A stretch of 64,000 nucleotides of DNA from Flammula alnicola (lineage: Eukaryota; Basidiomycota; Agaricomycetes; Agaricales; Strophariaceae): assembly GCA_015499995.1 (NCBI GenBank), contig JADNRV010000134.1, forward strand, positions 1 through 64,000, in the 5' to 3' direction. Positions within the stretch are counted from its first letter, which is position 1, and each line of letters begins with the position of its first letter. Shown one piece after another: positions 7,476 through 14,590 of the stretch. Position numbers and translations under genes: made by a program. A model generated the notes under the pieces. The model worked only from the letters and a program-made list of their open reading frames with translations. It had not been told where the DNA came from and searched no databases.

Positions 7476-8297
7476 GCACAGTTGAAGATGCCCTGTCTAT
7501 TGACGTGACGGCCCTTTTGCGCTGAAACGCCACCACCGTTCGGGGCAATGCTCAGTTTTCCAGAACTGTGCATCTTAGCGGTGTTCACTGCTAATGTATA
7601 TGACCTGTAGCAACCTATCAGTCATGTTTTCGGAGTGGCACAGTTCTTGGATCAGTCGCAGCGAATATTTAGTCGATCCCAAGGCCAAAACGCCATCTGA
7701 CCGCTGAGAGACAACCAAGAACTGTGCAGCTTAGTGGCTTGGCACAAAAATAGTTTGAAATATATAAAAAAACATGAGATAGGAGACGGGCTGGCACAGT
7801 TGAAGACGCGGCCGCTATTGACGTGACGGCCCTTTTATACTGAAACGCCACCACCGTTTTGGGCAATGCTCAGTTTTCAAGAACTGTGCATCTTAGCGGT
7901 GTTTACTGCCAATGTATATGACCTGTAGAAGCCTATTGGTCATGTTTTTGGAGTGGCACAGTTCTTGGATCAGGCTCAGCGAATATTTAGTCGATCCCAG
8001 GGCCAAAACGCCGTCTGACCGCTGAGAGACAACCAAGAACTGTGCAGCTTAGTGGCTTGGCACAAAAATAGTTTAAAATATATAAAAAATCATGAGATAA
8101 AACATAGGCTGGCACAGTTCAAGACGCGGCCGCTATTGACGTGACGGCCCTTTTACGCTGAAACGCCACCACCGTTCGGGGCAATGCTCAGTTTTCTAGA
8201 ACTGTGCATCTTAGTGGTGTTCAGGGATAATAGTTATGGCCTGTGGGAACCTATCTGTCATGTTTTTGGAGTGGCACAGTTCTTGAATCACGCACAG
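7476..8297. repeat. 318-bp tandem repeat, about 2.6 copies
   Basis: The landmark ACGTGACGGCCCTTTT occurs at 7,503, 7,821 and 8,139, exactly 318 bp apart. Each unit carries several copies of the word GGCACAGTT / AACTGTGC in both orientations (for example GGCACAGTTCTTGG and CCAAGAACTGTGCAGC), so the unit can fold on itself. The third copy is cut short near 8,297. It ends just before the Penelope-like element and may be its upstream part or an independent telomere-associated repeat. Confidence 0.9.
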
Positions 8298-8356
8298 GAA
8301 GCCTATTACCCTCCAAAACGTCGGAGGAAAGGCACCGATCGGGCCACAGAGACCTT

Positions 8357-8368
8357 GAACCCTAACCG
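8357..8368 (+). repeat. Short telomere-like motif upstream of the Penelope element
   Basis: AACCCTAACC lies in an otherwise unremarkable stretch, with a second one (CCCTAACCC) near 8,405. They are single motifs and could be chance, but they recur on both sides of the element. Confidence 0.4.
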
Positions 8369-8528
8369 ATCAAGGTCAAAGTTTTTGTTTCAGGGTCAGA
8401 TAGCCCTAACCCGGCCCTCCGGATAGACAGCCCTTCATTTTACAGTCAAAGGACCTCGCGTCGGGTTGTGCGGTGTCAGGACGTCTGCGGACGCCGCCCC
8501 GAGGGACCGAGGAACTGTGCCGCTCCAA

Positions 8529-8580: not shown

Positions 8581-8756
8581 GGGTCCCCGGCTGAATTCGG
8601 GTCACATCCGAGGGTGGAATGTAGGAACACTATAGATAGGCAGTTGTAGCGCCCGGCCTTCGGTCCCTTGCAGGACTCGCTGCCAAGTGGGTCGGCGTCC
8701 AGCAGTCGCTGGACAACCTACTTGCGCACAAAGCGAGGAAGACGTGGCCCCCTTCT

Positions 8757-9582
8757 TTGATCGGGGTCCATTTCCCGAAGCTCGAACTCACCGCCGAGTT
8801 CGCTGCTACGAATCCTTCTGGCCTCGGCGAGGTGAAGGAGACGTACGACAAGTTCCGCGGCCTTGTGCTTGACAAGCACATCGAGGTGAAAACCTCGGAG
8901 GCCAAGTGGCTTGACGAGCAGATTGCTCCCAAGCATTCCGCACCGCCGCTACTGTCTCTTTTGACGCAGCACTATGGCCTTCTGATGAAGGATTACCGGG
9001 ACTTGAAGGGCGAAACGCCCGTCAAGGATGACCACGGTAATACGATTCGGATTGAGCCTGTGTTCGCGGAGTCGGCTCTCTTCAAAAAAGAGTTCGACAA
9101 CTTGCTCGTGGATCTCCCGATCCTGGCCTCGCGCGTCATTACCCTCGAGCGTAACCGCTACTACGAGGCTAAAGCGAAGCGTGCCGCCAAGGAGAGTCTG
9201 CGCCAGGAAACGGATGTCGTGATGGGTGACTTGACCACCGACAACGCCGCTGCGATCATCGACGCCCGAGTCAACTCGGTCCTGGAAAAACGACTTCGGT
9301 CAATGCGCTTGGTAAGCACCGATTCTCCCTTTTTATTAAGCGAGATCTCTGATTACTATTCAGGTTGGAGGCAAGGGCGCTCGAGGCGTCTCGAAGGTCG
9401 GCCCCGCCTCCTCGAATATCAAGAGTACCAAGCAGACGCCAAAACTCAAACCGGCGACTCAGAAGAAGTCTGGCGGCGGGCCCTCGCGCCCCCGCCAGCC
9501 TTCTTCGAACAAGTCGCCGAAACCGCAGGCGAAAGCCTCGAGTTCGGCCTCACGCAAAGGCAAAGGGAAGCAGAGGCAGTAG
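8757..9582 (+). CDS. Alternative spliced product of the PLE: short protein with basic tail
   Basis: A good 52-nt intron (GTAAGC at 9,312; TTCAG ending at 9,363) lies in the first part of the open frame. Because 52 is not a multiple of three, its removal moves translation into another frame that runs 72 codons to TAG at 9,580-9,582. That frame encodes a low-complexity, lysine-rich tail (for example KPATQKKSGGGPSRPRQ and SRKGKGKQRQ), whereas the unspliced frame over the same bases looks less protein-like until the RT region. The predicted product is about 257 residues from the TTG. I infer two products: a spliced, possibly nucleic-acid-binding protein and an unspliced form leading into the RT. 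A frameshift, a further intron (acceptor CCATACAG near 9,692) or reinitiation could also connect the two. Confidence 0.55.
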
Positions 9583-12125
9583 TTGCCTCTGCCGTCGCTG
9601 GAGGAACGCGGGCGGTGCCCGCCCTTCGGTACGATAGAGCTGACACCTATCCAGACGAAATCTTACTGATCCCTTTCCCCCTCGCCATACAGTATATAAT
9701 CGCTGCTACGCCTCCTGTGGTTGTGGAGGCGGCTAGATTCCGTAGTAGCGTACATCTCGGTCCGGGGGTTTCGGCCCCCAATTATATATCTGTACAAGTG
9801 TCCGCGGGTTTAAGGTACCTCCCTCGCGCTGGAAGCTCCAGCGGTAAAAACCTTAATAAAAATTTGCTTTACCGTGCGTTCGATGATATGTGTGATCGTC
9901 TAAGGTGGCGCCTCTACTGGCTAGAACGCGAAAGCAAAGGAGAGACCGAGAAAAAAGTCTATGACCCAGACTATGATATTCGCCGCCCCCGGTCAGAGGC
10001 GGTCGAATTGCACCCCTACATTGAAGATGGACTTGCTGCCGGAAGGTCGTACATAGATTCGTTCTGTGCCAACGTCGTACCTCAGTTACTCAAAGTCGAA
10101 CCACGCCCCGAGCTGGTAGACTACCAGAGTGTCCAGGACTTCCTCCGAAGCAATAACTATATCGTTTTGCCAACGGATAAGAATCTAGGTGCATCCATAG
10201 TAACTCGGGACTGGTTCTTAGACAACACACGTGCGCTCCTCTCAGACGCGGCTAATTACACCATATTTAGTCGGGAGAACGCAGAAGTCATGTTGATACA
10301 AACATGTAATTCGGTCATTGAGTTGTCGGCGGACGCTCGTGCTATCTTTAGTAATGACCAATTGGCAGATTTTTTGCGGCAATTTGTCCCGGACGAGTTA
10401 GCGCTCGATAAGTTCATCGTGCCTGTGTTCTATGGTATACCCAAGATTCACAAGGAACCCGTAAAGATGAGACCTATCGTGCCTTGTCACAGCGCGCTTG
10501 TAAACCCGGCTGCCAAGTTTGTATCAAAAACGTTGAAACCTTTCCTAGCACAGCGTCCTTACGTCCTTCGCGGGACTAAGGACCTAGCGATTCGGTTATC
10601 CAAAACAACGTTTGATCCTACACGCAAACTTTTCCTCGTTGGATTCGACATCGTAGCGTTTTATCCAACGATACCAACCTTAGAAGCGATCAAAGCGGTT
10701 TTATCGCTATGGTTGAGGAAATCTAATCCACGCCCATCTACACAACTCTTCAAGTTCACTGATAGAGCGATGCGGCTTGCGTGCATGGATCTTATTTTTA
10801 AGTTCGAGCAAACATTCTACCTGCAGAAGCGCGGTTTAGCAATGGGCGTAGCTTGTAGCCCGGATGTTGCTAACCTGTGGGGCGCTGTCTTTGAGGAAAA
10901 ATGGGCTCCCGTCGAGCTAAATAAAGGTAAACTGGCGTTCTACGCTCGGTTTATCGACGACGGTCTTGCTTTAGTGTATGCCAACTCTCGCGAAGAAGCG
11001 CTTGAGTATTGTCAGTCATTCATAAAGTTTGACGAGCACGAACTTACGTGGGACGTGAGCGAGTTTCATCTCGCATTCCTGGACATGATGTTGTACATCA
11101 ACCCGGCTAGCAACCGGCTTGAATGGCAACCTTACCGCAAAGCACGTAACCACCTTGAACGCATCCCGTTCGCATCTCACCACCCCCTCGATGTCCGAAA
11201 GGGCACCTTCTTGGGAGAGATGTCACGGCTAGCCGTACTTAGTAGTAATCCTGCTAATTACTTCGAGGCTCTCCAAGATCTTCGAAGTATCTACATCAGT
11301 AGAGGCTACCCGTTGAAGTTGTTAAACAAATGGTTAAAGGACAACACCAACAAGAGATGGCATGCGCGCTTTGAGGAGAGCGCAAATGGAGACCGGTCCA
11401 AAAGACCGGATACCGGAGGAGCCATAATCGATCTCTTGGTCCTGAAATCAGAGTTCAACCTGATCTGGGAAGCGTTCGACCTACGAGAACTTCAGAATGT
11501 TGTCGTTAAACGCTGGATAACCAGTCTGTCCGAGGTTCGCTCGAACAGGTTATCCCGACTTTACGAATTCGCTAAGTCCCGTTACGGAGCCGATATATCT
11601 AGTATTGATTATACTACCATCGCAAAGTACGCGGAAGGACTTGGGTTCGATGTTCGTCGCGGGTTGGCTCCGGCCGAACCGATGGATGTTGACGTGAGTG
11701 GGTCTTCGGATCCAGCCCAGGAGGAAGTGTCGATGTCAGTGGACGAGTCGAACGGTGACCAGTCAGTTCCGGCTGTTAAGTTGCCTATAGATTTGGAAGC
11801 GGTTGATACCCTGAACAATCCTGACTTCGGTTGGGATGATATCTCCCTTACGTATCTGCGCCCCATGGGGTTTACCAGTAACAGTATGGAGGTCAGGGAC
11901 GTGATCGATGTTCGTAAAGTTGGTCTAACGACTGCACGATGGCTTGTCTCCCGCAAACGTTTGCCTAACCTGGGCGATGTTGTGGGTAAGATGAGACGTG
12001 AGGTATTGAGCTCGGTAACACATGCTCTACCTCTACAAAATTCTGAAGAAGATAGTCCCATTATTGCGGACGATCTGGTACTCTTCGACGATACATTTTT
12101 CGGAGAAGAGCCCTCGTTGGGTTAA
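8757..12125 (+). CDS. Penelope-like reverse transcriptase (RT, no GIY-YIG)
   Basis: Open frame of about 1,120 codons. RT signatures in order: LPTDKNLGASIV near 10,170; the RT2-like HKEPVKMRPIV near 10,460; motif A FDIVAFYPTIP (10,643-10,675); motif B LAMGVACSPDVANLWG near 10,840; catalytic motif C ARFIDDG with the two aspartates (about 10,947-10,964); motif D FLDMMLYI; and a thumb region ending RGYPLKLLNKWL. This set is typical of Penelope-like RTs, which are the closest relatives of telomerase RT. After the thumb there are about 250 residues with acidic patches and no GIY-YIG or Cys-rich nuclease motif, so it matches the endonuclease-lacking class. The start is uncertain: position 8,757 is TTG, the frame is open from 8,640, and the first in-frame ATG is at 8,985. 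Residues before about 9,600 may belong to a separate product (see 8,757-9,582). Confidence 0.85.
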   Translation: MIGVHFPKLELTAEFAATNPSGLGEVKETYDKFRGLVLDKHIEVKTSEAKWLDEQIAPKHSAPPLLSLLTQHYGLLMKDYRDLKGETPVKDDHGNTIRIEPVFAESALFKKEFDNLLVDLPILASRVITLERNRYYEAKAKRAAKESLRQETDVVMGDLTTDNAAAIIDARVNSVLEKRLRSMRLVSTDSPFLLSEISDYYSGWRQGRSRRLEGRPRLLEYQEYQADAKTQTGDSEEVWRRALAPPPAFFEQVAETAGESLEFGLTQRQREAEAVVASAVAGGTRAVPALRYDRADTYPDEILLIPFPLAIQYIIAATPPVVVEAARFRSSVHLGPGVSAPNYISVQVSAGLRYLPRAGSSSGKNLNKNLLYRAFDDMCDRLRWRLYWLERESKGETEKKVYDPDYDIRRPRSEAVELHPYIEDGLAAGRSYIDSFCANVVPQLLKVEPRPELVDYQSVQDFLRSNNYIVLPTDKNLGASIVTRDWFLDNTRALLSDAANYTIFSRENAEVMLIQTCNSVIELSADARAIFSNDQLADFLRQFVPDELALDKFIVPVFYGIPKIHKEPVKMRPIVPCHSALVNPAAKFVSKTLKPFLAQRPYVLRGTKDLAIRLSKTTFDPTRKLFLVGFDIVAFYPTIPTLEAIKAVLSLWLRKSNPRPSTQLFKFTDRAMRLACMDLIFKFEQTFYLQKRGLAMGVACSPDVANLWGAVFEEKWAPVELNKGKLAFYARFIDDGLALVYANSREEALEYCQSFIKFDEHELTWDVSEFHLAFLDMMLYINPASNRLEWQPYRKARNHLERIPFASHHPLDVRKGTFLGEMSRLAVLSSNPANYFEALQDLRSIYISRGYPLKLLNKWLKDNTNKRWHARFEESANGDRSKRPDTGGAIIDLLVLKSEFNLIWEAFDLRELQNVVVKRWITSLSEVRSNRLSRLYEFAKSRYGADISSIDYTTIAKYAEGLGFDVRRGLAPAEPMDVDVSGSSDPAQEEVSMSVDESNGDQSVPAVKLPIDLEAVDTLNNPDFGWDDISLTYLRPMGFTSNSMEVRDVIDVRKVGLTTARWLVSRKRLPNLGDVVGKMRREVLSSVTHALPLQNSEEDSPIIADDLVLFDDTFFGEEPSLG

Positions 12126-13480
12126 ATATCCAAACGAAGATATTTACTATTTGCCTTTTAGGCTCGGTTCAAACCCGAACCCGAACCCTAACCGTTAACC
12201 CAGAACCCTAGCCGAAGGTAGTATGGAAGGTATGGAAACCGTAATAGGCCCTGGTTCGTCTTAATCGATATCAGGCACTAGGTAATTCGTTAGTATCGAG
12301 CGTAGTCGTTCGTTCTAAAATAAGACAGTGCAAGTTGTCATTGGGATCTGATCCCCCAACCTGCAGATGATCGCTTCAGGGATCGGACCAGCTGAGTGGA
12401 CTGTAGGCGCCCTTAGGTTGAAATATTACCGACAGGAGTCCCAGAGTTTATGTCTGTAAGTGACGCAAGTACCCTAAAAGCTTCGGTTAGTAAGGGGGCC
12501 TTCGGGTCTTAAACACGAGCTATGTACTCGAGATATCAAAACGCGAGGATACGCCAAGTGACGGCTATCTTGGGGCGAAGGTTCGCCGATGCACCCCTCG
12601 ATCTCTTACTAGTACGCCCAAACGGTAGCTTTACGGCGGCTGTACGGGGAACAGAACGTTCGATACGGCTTAGTCGCGGTGCAGCGCAGTGGTGTGGTTA
12701 AGGGACCGCGACCCGGCGGGAAGTTCGTCGGGGTGGGAGCGGAGAATATACCAACCTTAACAAGGCTTCGGCCTTGAGATCGGGAACAGTCGGAGTAGTC
12801 CAGGGGTGACGGCAAGGACGTACACTGCTATTCTGGCTGGTGTTCGGGGAGCTTCGGGCTTCTCGGGCATCTCGGTCCGACTTGTGCTATTATCGTTGCG
12901 GACGTATTGTGGTTGAGATATACCCGTGCGTTAACGCGCGCTCTAATTGCATTTAGGCGCTAGGTTCCGAATGTTAAGCGCGGGAGTACATGCTCGGGGC
13001 CGGGTAGTAACCGGTCTAGTGCGGGCACGGCATGGAAAGCCGGATACCCCTTGCCTGTCACACGTTGGTTACGCACGTGTTGCTATATTTAGAGACCTGG
13101 GGTCGCCAGTGGGAAAACTGTACCGCTGCCGGTTCCGGCTTCTTTAGAAGCATTATTATTATTAGAATTGTGGCGCACGCACACGCTATTTTTGTTTCCA
13201 GTACAGCGGTGGTCAGCCGGTTAGGCCCCACCACATGCTGCTGGAACGTGAGTCATGTATGAAAAGTACATGCATGGGTTCCGGGTAATCGGCCGCGTGT
13301 TTCATGCCATGCTTCGATGGGTCCGTTCGCGGTCACCTGTCCAGGCGGAAGCTAAGAACCGTGGGTCGGCTTGGACGGCAAGGCCTAACACACCTTATCG
13401 CACCATTATTGCGCCATCTCGCGCAATAATACCCGCACGTTGGTACACTGCCTATGCTCAGGCAGTATAAATACGAGCCA
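12126..13480 (+). other. Long 3' region of the Penelope-like element, no gene
   Basis: No convincing ORF. It begins with a short telomere-like patch (AACCCTAACC near 12,187 and GAACCCTAGCC near 12,208). It contains hairpins closed by UUCG loops, the clearest being CAAGGC-TTCG-GCCTTG near 12,760-12,777. I read it as structured untranslated RNA of the element or as an older insertion. Confidence 0.5.
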
Positions 13481-13548
13481 GGATGCACTGAAGAGGTTCA
13501 ACCGAAAAGTTGCTTTCAAGTCAAGACGACTTGAGCCCTTTTGCATCC
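13481..13548 (+). ncRNA. Hammerhead-ribozyme-like motif (type I layout)
   Basis: The order of elements fits a hammerhead. Stem I 5' strand is GGATGCA (13,481-13,487) and the first core box is CTGAAGA (13,488-13,494). Stem II is GGT-TCA-ACC (13,495-13,503), followed by the second core box GAAA (13,504-13,507). Next comes a stem III region with an internal hairpin TCAAGTC/GACTTGA (13,516-13,522 and 13,528-13,534). Stem I 3' strand is TGCATCC (13,542-13,548), fully complementary to the first. Cleavage would fall after T13,541 (UUU triplet, allowed by the NUH rule but not the usual GUC or GUA). Stem III next to the core is only about 3 bp (AAG/CTT), which is its weak point. Hammerhead motifs have been reported in Penelope-like elements. 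Confidence 0.7.
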
Positions 13549-13611
13549 CGCTTGAACCCCAACACAACGGTACGCCCTTGCCACTGCTCCGGCGGTGGTG
13601 AGGATCTCCAC

Positions 13612-13632
13612 TACCCTAAACCCTAACCCTAA
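13612..13632 (+). repeat. Interstitial telomeric repeat (CCCTAA)n at the element's 3' end
   Basis: Three consecutive units, CCCTAAACCCTAACCCTAA, lie about 65 bp after the hammerhead-like motif. The C-rich strand is in the sense orientation of the element, as expected if the G-rich chromosome end primed its reverse transcription. Confidence 0.85.
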
Positions 13633-13636
13633 GTAC

Positions 13637-14590
13637 GCCATGGGTACGCGCACTGCCAAAAGAAAGAAGGGATGCTCGGCACACCCGGTACGCAACTGCC
13701 ATGGGTACGCGCACTACCAAAAGAGAGAAGAGAAGGCCGGGACGCCCGGAGCGCACCCTACCAAAAGAGGAATGTCAATGGAACGCCTCAGGAATGCGCA
13801 GAGGACGCTGTGAGTAAGCGCACTGGCAAAAAAGAGAAGGGATGCCCAGCATGCACGGTATGCACGGTATGCACGGCACGCGCTCTCCCTAAGCTACGCC
13901 ACGGGTACGCGCACTGGCAAGCACTGGCAAAAGAGAGAAGGGATGCACGGCACGCATGGTACGCACTCCACCAAAGCTATGCCATGGGTATGTGCACTGC
14001 CAAAAGAGGGAAGGGATGGCCGGCACGCCCAGTGCGCATGGTATGCATGGCACGCACGGTACGCAACCAAAGTTATGCCACGGGTACGCGCACTACCAAA
14101 AGAAAGAAGGAATGCCCGGGACGCCCGGTACGCACCCCACCAAAAGCTACGCTGTGGGTTAGGGCACTGGCAAAAGAGGAATGCCAGTGGAACGCTTCAG
14201 GAATGCCAGTGGAACGCCATGGCAGACGCCCTACTGAAAGAGGAACGCCCAGTGCATGACGCAATACTGAAAGAAGAACGCCCAGTGCATGACGCAATGC
14301 CAAGGGTACCCACCAGACAGCAAGAACGCCAGAGGCCACAAAGAAGAACGCCTACGGAATGCCTACGGAACATGTCGGGAACGCCAAAGGGAATCAAGGA
14401 ACGCCTCGGGAACGTCTTGATGCAATGACATCATGCATCGGATAGGCGTACCGGTCCCTGACATGATGGCCGAGAACGCCAGGAGCGTCTACTTTATTTT
14501 TAGATTGACGCTGGGAACGCCATGAATGCCCAAACTATTTTTAGATTGACGTTCTGCAGGCGTACCGGAACGCCCAAATATTCGATTTTT
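13637..14590. repeat. GGTACGC/GGAACGC minisatellite next to the telomeric tract
   Basis: Irregular units of about 60-95 bp share GCCAYGGGTACGCGCACTRCC, AAAAGARAGAAGGGATGCC and CGGTACGC. Towards the right they simplify to GGAACGCC and TGGAACGCC words. ORFs of up to 195 codons here are repeat artefacts. Confidence 0.85.

Follow-up and report, generated by a model that had tools for sequence, protein, structure and literature searches.

Positions 13481–13548, on the forward strand of the 64,000-nt stretch of Flammula alnicola DNA analysed here (the window), hold a motif that is in all likelihood hammerhead-derived, with a probability of about 0.85. The motif lies 1.4 kb downstream of the open frame 8640–12125 of a 5´-truncated retroelement copy. 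Self-cleavage of the motif is slightly favoured over its absence. It is about equally plausible, at a little above even odds, that the element is a telomere-associated Penelope-like element of the Coprina/Athena type without endonuclease, whose 3´-terminal RNA module includes a type I hammerhead-type motif.

Layout and predicted folds of the motif

All of the parts named in the preliminary description can be read directly from the sequence, where it placed them and in the exact hammerhead order. Stem I is formed by GGATGCA (13481–13487) and TGCATCC (13542–13548), which pair perfectly over 7 bp. Its 5´ strand is followed, on the same forward strand, by the core CTGAAGA (CUGAAGA in the RNA; 13488–13494), in which U13489 corresponds to U4, by stem II (GGU/ACC with a UCA triloop; 13495–13503) and by the conserved GAAA (13504–13507), of which A13507 takes position 15.1. 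Stem III had been described as 3 bp extended by a separate hairpin. The 3 bp (13507–13509 with 13538–13540) and the inner hairpin (TCAAGTC-AAGAC-GACTTGA, 13516–13534; 13516–13522 with 13528–13534) stand, but the hairpin need not be separate: GC at 13512–13513 can pair with GC at 13535–13536, which gives an interrupted stem III of 3+2+7 bp. The proposed cleavage triplet, UUU (TTT in the DNA), is found at 13539–13541, and the predicted cut falls between 13541 and 13542 by hammerhead numbering. UUU is a poor hammerhead cleavage triplet.

Outside stem I, GAGC (13475–13478) is a possible outer extension that would pair with GCUU (13550–13553), one G-U pair included; among copies of the element, two one-sided changes are seen there, G13475A on C9 and C13551U on C397, and each preserves a pair. 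Just past stem I, UUGAACC (13552–13558) is complementary to GGUUCAA (13495–13501; duplex −7.3 kcal/mol) and invariant in the copies. As far as complementarity can tell, it is a possible tertiary contact, pseudoknot strand or competitor of stem II, and it might lie where loop II may meet it in the folded hammerhead. The hammerheads of Penelope-like elements often lack such a loop-loop contact. The distance to the telomeric repeats had been put at about 65 bp; 65 nt separate the motif end at 13548 from CCCTAA at 13614.

The sequence has the complementarity for all three helices, arranged about the core as in a hammerhead; the thermodynamic model favours another fold. The minimum free energy (MFE) structure is a closed junction, with a long closed stem and two inner hairpins, at −28.2 kcal/mol, compared with −23.5 kcal/mol for the best hammerhead-compatible fold (a gap of 4.7 kcal/mol). 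It is more stable than expected (z −3.85), none of 200 shuffles being equally stable, and the C9 copy adopts the same MFE layout. In the ensemble, stem I pairs with a probability of 0.999, and stem II and the first part of stem III with about 0.003, under a nearest-neighbour model that is free of tertiary contacts and Mg2+ and uncalibrated on known hammerheads. Of the RNA structures at the 3´ end, the better supported is a terminal hairpin of 12 bp (13576–13603, forward strand) between the motif and the telomeric tail. Its counterpart in the C9 copy has 13 bp and different arms, and four pairs are changed on both sides; the two folds were compared by hand, the automatic alignment being poor in this region.

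Chance expectation, model searches and conservation

To assess chance expectation, a descriptor was written that comprises CTGANGA, stem II, GAAA, stem III starting from A15.1-U16.1 (span ≤60), NUH and stem I, with G-U pairs allowed and with limits set after the motif had been seen. At all settings tried, exactly one site in the window, both strands included, matches. Among 300 dinucleotide shuffles, no match was obtained with minimum lengths of stems I/II/III of 7/3/3, 6/3/3 or 6/3/2, and one in total at 5/3/2. With CCGA also allowed, 81 loci from this genome, 256,119 bases in total, contain 53 descriptor matches, every one of them in a copy of the motif; since the loci overlap, this result serves as a background control and gives no copy count. 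The bare CTGANGA..GAAA pattern occurs at chance level (4 matches against 5.18 expected), so that the significance comes from the three stems. The shuffles and the 53 matches place the hammerhead architecture above chance.

A covariance-model search had been proposed as a check, and here the motif fails: it has no match in any Rfam hammerhead model. None is found at the gathering threshold, nor at E ≤10 on 12500–14500 and 13460–13570, nor at E ≤1 on six loci, four of which, standing for three copies (C9, C849 and C397), have the whole motif. In whole-genome searches with RF00163 and RF00008, the motif is absent among the 73 of 13322 and 68 of 14450 candidates scored. The Rfam 15 models miss the hammerhead-type variant at 13481–13548. 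A weak RF00163 site inside the open frame (8976–9029; 19.1 bits, E 2.7) was rejected as chance level. An HDV-like topology was rejected by inspection, given that a linker of 7 nt joins the inner hairpin to stem I and that a P4 is lacking.

The genome also carries an unrelated second hammerhead-like family, with sites on C112 (locus L082, 198–245), C581 (L083, 205–252) and C46 (L084, 203–247) that score 27.5, 27.5 and 21.0 bits with RF00008 (gathering 48.5; genome-wide E 0.033, 0.033 and 2.2). Of 14 control genomes, 7 also yield sub-threshold RF00008 matches. The copies on C112 and C581 show no difference across the 181 nt that were compared; the one on C46 shares 79% identity with them over 92 nt, carries an 11-nt insertion at the would-be loop I and has a stem III pair that, by reading, is altered and still pairs. 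For Pleurotus ostreatus, Table 2 of PMC5040776, as excerpted, lists five Hammerhead_3 matches, three of them on scaffold59 at 142237, 146486 and 152597, a spacing that could reflect retroelement copies.

The whole motif is present in 22 of 26 copies of the element, and 21 of the 22 are identical throughout, although these are partly non-independent (the two on C279 have the same 3´ flank, and a C39 copy likewise shares its flank with a C151 copy). The core CUGANGA...GAAA and the NUH triplet are found in the same number, 21 of 22, the C9 copy having CCGAAGA. This copy, the only diverged one, differs at 3 of 68 sites: one is U4C in the core, and the others are two bases in the loop of the inner hairpin. 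It matches the window only from about 12953 on, without the reverse transcriptase (RT). Within 13473–13559, 82 of 87 sites are identical between C9 and the window, compared with 347 of 507 aligned sites in 12953–13472 (Fisher p 4.9e-8), which indicates that the block 13473–13559 is strongly conserved; the interval was picked post hoc, and when 87-nt segments are compared in a full slide, the best ones start at 13489–13493 and overlap it. Compensatory changes, which the preliminary description had asked for, are uninformative: stems I–III are invariant in the 22 copies, so no covariation appears either way. Low diversity among near-identical copies was dropped as evidence of constraint, because 13225–13324 is also without a variable site. 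Elsewhere in the 3´ UTR, another conserved stretch lies at 13241–13360, where C9 agrees with the window at 97 of 118 aligned sites.

The carrier element and its telomeric 3´ end

The retroelement copy spans 8638–13613 on the forward strand. It is 5´-truncated at about 8638, where homology to the C97 copy starts (the latter extends further upstream), and its 3´ end is fixed before CCCTAA. The open frame (8640–12125, forward strand; 1161 aa) contains an RT domain at about 10446–11024 and no endonuclease domain that we could find. RVT_1 matches above its cut-off, with E 1.1e-8, in a 667-aa segment (9900–11900). The whole frame gives no family at E ≤0.001, the flanks of the RT segment no Pfam family at E ≤10, and three parts covering the frame no GIY-YIG endonuclease at E ≤10, in a scan confined to sequence downstream of the truncation. 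C-strand telomeric repeats, CCCTAAACCCTAACCCTAA, occupy 13614–13632 (forward strand) at the element's 3´ end. The open frame, the RVT_1 match and the 3´ sequence thus bear out the earlier claim of an RT element that carries the motif downstream of its frame and adjoins telomeric repeats. Upstream of the truncated element, 318-bp tandem repeats fill 7476–8411, and related repeats occur on several other contigs.

Relatives of the RT number 274 proteins at E ≤0.001 among 8000 scored candidates, with a best identity of 55%. Among the best 120 of the 274, three are organism-named: Bondarzewia mesenterica (a basidiomycete), Fibroporia radiculosa and Armillaria ostoyae. It is through these relatives of up to 55% identity that the element resembles the fungal endonuclease-deficient Penelope-like elements (Coprina). 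None of the database labels names Penelope; NCBIfam offers at best a weak match (to a bacterial RT, far below the cut-off), and a PDB profile search is weak. We infer membership of the Penelope clade from the telomere habit, the missing endonuclease and RT motifs that we take to be those of the Penelope/TERT clade. The relatives' DNA was sought in viral_contigs and genome_contigs, which yielded nothing usable. A second RT family in the genome, on C334 (L081, 3063–4199), was found in one copy that is 29–30% identical to the window RT; its frame ends within the RT, and the 4.2 kb fetched contain no descriptor match and CCCTAA only on the other strand.

At least 26 copies of the element are present in the 74-Mb genome. 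A search with the 3´-end word recovers the same 26, all at ≤2 mismatches (21 exact, five with 1–2); the reversed control gives 7 matches at ≤3. The copies share a common 3´ end, which is followed by CCCTAA in 24 of the 26, by CCCCAA in one and by CCCTAG in one (the C484 copy); on C851, the junction of one copy with a further truncated copy lies at CTACCC. The flanks differ beyond one to a few CCCTAA-like units, and the 5´ ends are variable, many of them truncated. At the ends of contigs C849, C100 and C181, truncated copies are joined directly to CCCTAA arrays; 67–83 bases separate junction and contig end, of which 45 were read. Some copies stand head to tail; on C97, about 5.3 kb separate one 3´ end from the next, and a copy there starts without its own motif, directly after the 3´ piece (from 13507) of its neighbour. 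The fixed 3´ end in C-strand telomeric repeats, the 5´ truncation and the telomeric caps match what is written of endonuclease-deficient Penelope-like elements. Such elements, those of fungi included, are described in passages of PMC3846280 as priming at exposed chromosome ends, with telomeric repeats then added to the truncated 5´ end, and an excerpt of PMC7473861 places Penelope-like elements at two chromosome ends of Agaricus bisporus.

Function, alternative readings and known relatives

The module would run from the hammerhead-type motif through a linker and the terminal hairpin to CUA(CCCUAA)n. At a chromosome end, the C-rich RNA terminus would pair with the G-rich 3´ overhang, and this overhang would prime reverse transcription, after which the new chromosome end would be healed by telomeric repeats. 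The hammerhead might cut after U13541 in read-through transcripts of head-to-tail copies and so create the 5´ end of the downstream unit; alternatively, it might cut there when RT binding favours the active fold. Since cutting its own RNA would sever the open frame from the priming end, cleavage must be weak, regulated or late. The hammerhead-type fold would also present the telomeric template.

Possible traces of cleavage come from four copies that start within 13507–13556. Two of them, on C856 and C849, start at 13543 and 13545, that is, 1 and 3 nt past the predicted end at 13542 (post hoc P about 0.03 for two of four starts near the cut), and the C856 copy is preceded by CCTAA. RT stalling in stem I could also produce these starts. 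The two short copies and the block conservation in C9 count for function. Against activity count the missing Rfam hammerhead match, the more stable rival fold, U4C in C9, the UUU triplet and the lack of covariation in stems I–III.

These points have to be weighed against other readings of the site. A possible one, though it is the less probable, is that the motif is hammerhead-derived and no longer catalytic, its fold being kept to bind the RT and expose the telomeric template. The near-total conservation of primary sequence, linkers included, is easier to reconcile with protein binding than with a ribozyme free to covary, and both the U4C change and an MFE fold that differs from the hammerhead point the same way. 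So does the Anolis Penelope-like element, for which portions of PMC11167929 report that cleavage by the hammerhead in vitro requires the element's protein and that catalytic hammerhead mutations leave insertion in vitro unaffected. However, 21 of the 22 copies with the whole motif keep the catalytic core complete, the starts of two copies lie next to the predicted cut, and U4C may be later decay, as the C9 copy matches only the 3´ part of the element, without the RT. That the site is no hammerhead at all, with the MFE closed stem or an H-type pseudoknot (stem I plus 13495–13501/13552–13558) as the true structure and the hammerhead-like words coincidental, is unlikely. The stability of the MFE fold and its shared layout in C9 argue for it, and the 7-nt complement would explain the conservation of GAACC beyond the hammerhead; yet chance alone would not uncommonly place such a complement within 87 nt (an estimated probability of about 0.2), and the descriptor matched in 0 of 300 shuffles, at a site where related elements are known to have hammerheads. 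A functionless chance resemblance, to which only the frequency of the bare CTGANGA..GAAA pattern, equal to that in shuffles, would speak, is very improbable in view of the shuffle result, the C9 block conservation and the 53 of 53 descriptor matches.

A two-state switch formed by the 87-nt block, in which the closed junction keeps the RT-coding RNA joined to the telomere-priming tail until RT binding or the UUGAACC contact flips it to a cutting hammerhead, is a speculative and rather improbable elaboration. No more probable is its second part, that the released hairpin-plus-telomeric-template RNA would be reverse transcribed onto chromosome ends, as the C856 and C849 short copies suggest. If the switch were true, a selfish element would make a telomerase-RNA-like product.

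The preliminary description had called the placement unusual. It is less so than supposed: passages of PMC6431247 on rotifer Terminons already describe hammerheads directly upstream of reverse-complement telomeric repeats, so the placement here is not new. We are probably dealing with a hammerhead-type motif in a telomeric retroelement, an arrangement already known in related elements. Terminons and Athena of bdelloid rotifers, according to parts of PMC6431247 and PMC3846280, share with the element a 3´ hammerhead-type fold followed by reverse-complement telomeric repeats, an RT frame without endonuclease, and 5´ truncation with telomeric repeats. Unlike them, the element here has a CCCTAA unit, is compact (about 5.3 kb on C97), places 65 nt and a second hairpin between motif and repeats, and has a long, interrupted stem III.

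The minimal type I hammerheads of animal Penelope-like elements, such as Poseidon of Anolis, share with the motif the core, the type I topology and the Penelope-like host. In contrast to them, stem III here comprises 3+2+7 bp; nor does the C97 copy carry its own motif at its start. Fungal and protist Penelope-like elements reportedly contain hammerhead variants that are stable as monomers (Cervera and de la Pena, 2014), and such variants would fit the long stem III found here. Excerpts of PMC6155905 and PMC7761336 describe Penelope-like hammerheads as usually minimal, without helix III, and the latter maps some of them to pseudo-LTRs. Among the best matches listed in the literature searches, we recognised no description of a hammerhead in a fungal telomeric element, and we make no claim of priority.

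According to a review section (PMC7761336), it is unknown what role such minimal hammerheads play in Terminons and in Penelope-like elements. With its many near-identical compact copies, the element described here is a test case for the role of a hammerhead at a telomere-priming end, in which it can be asked whether the hammerhead cuts, whether RT binding triggers the cut and whether the severed tail can self-prime.
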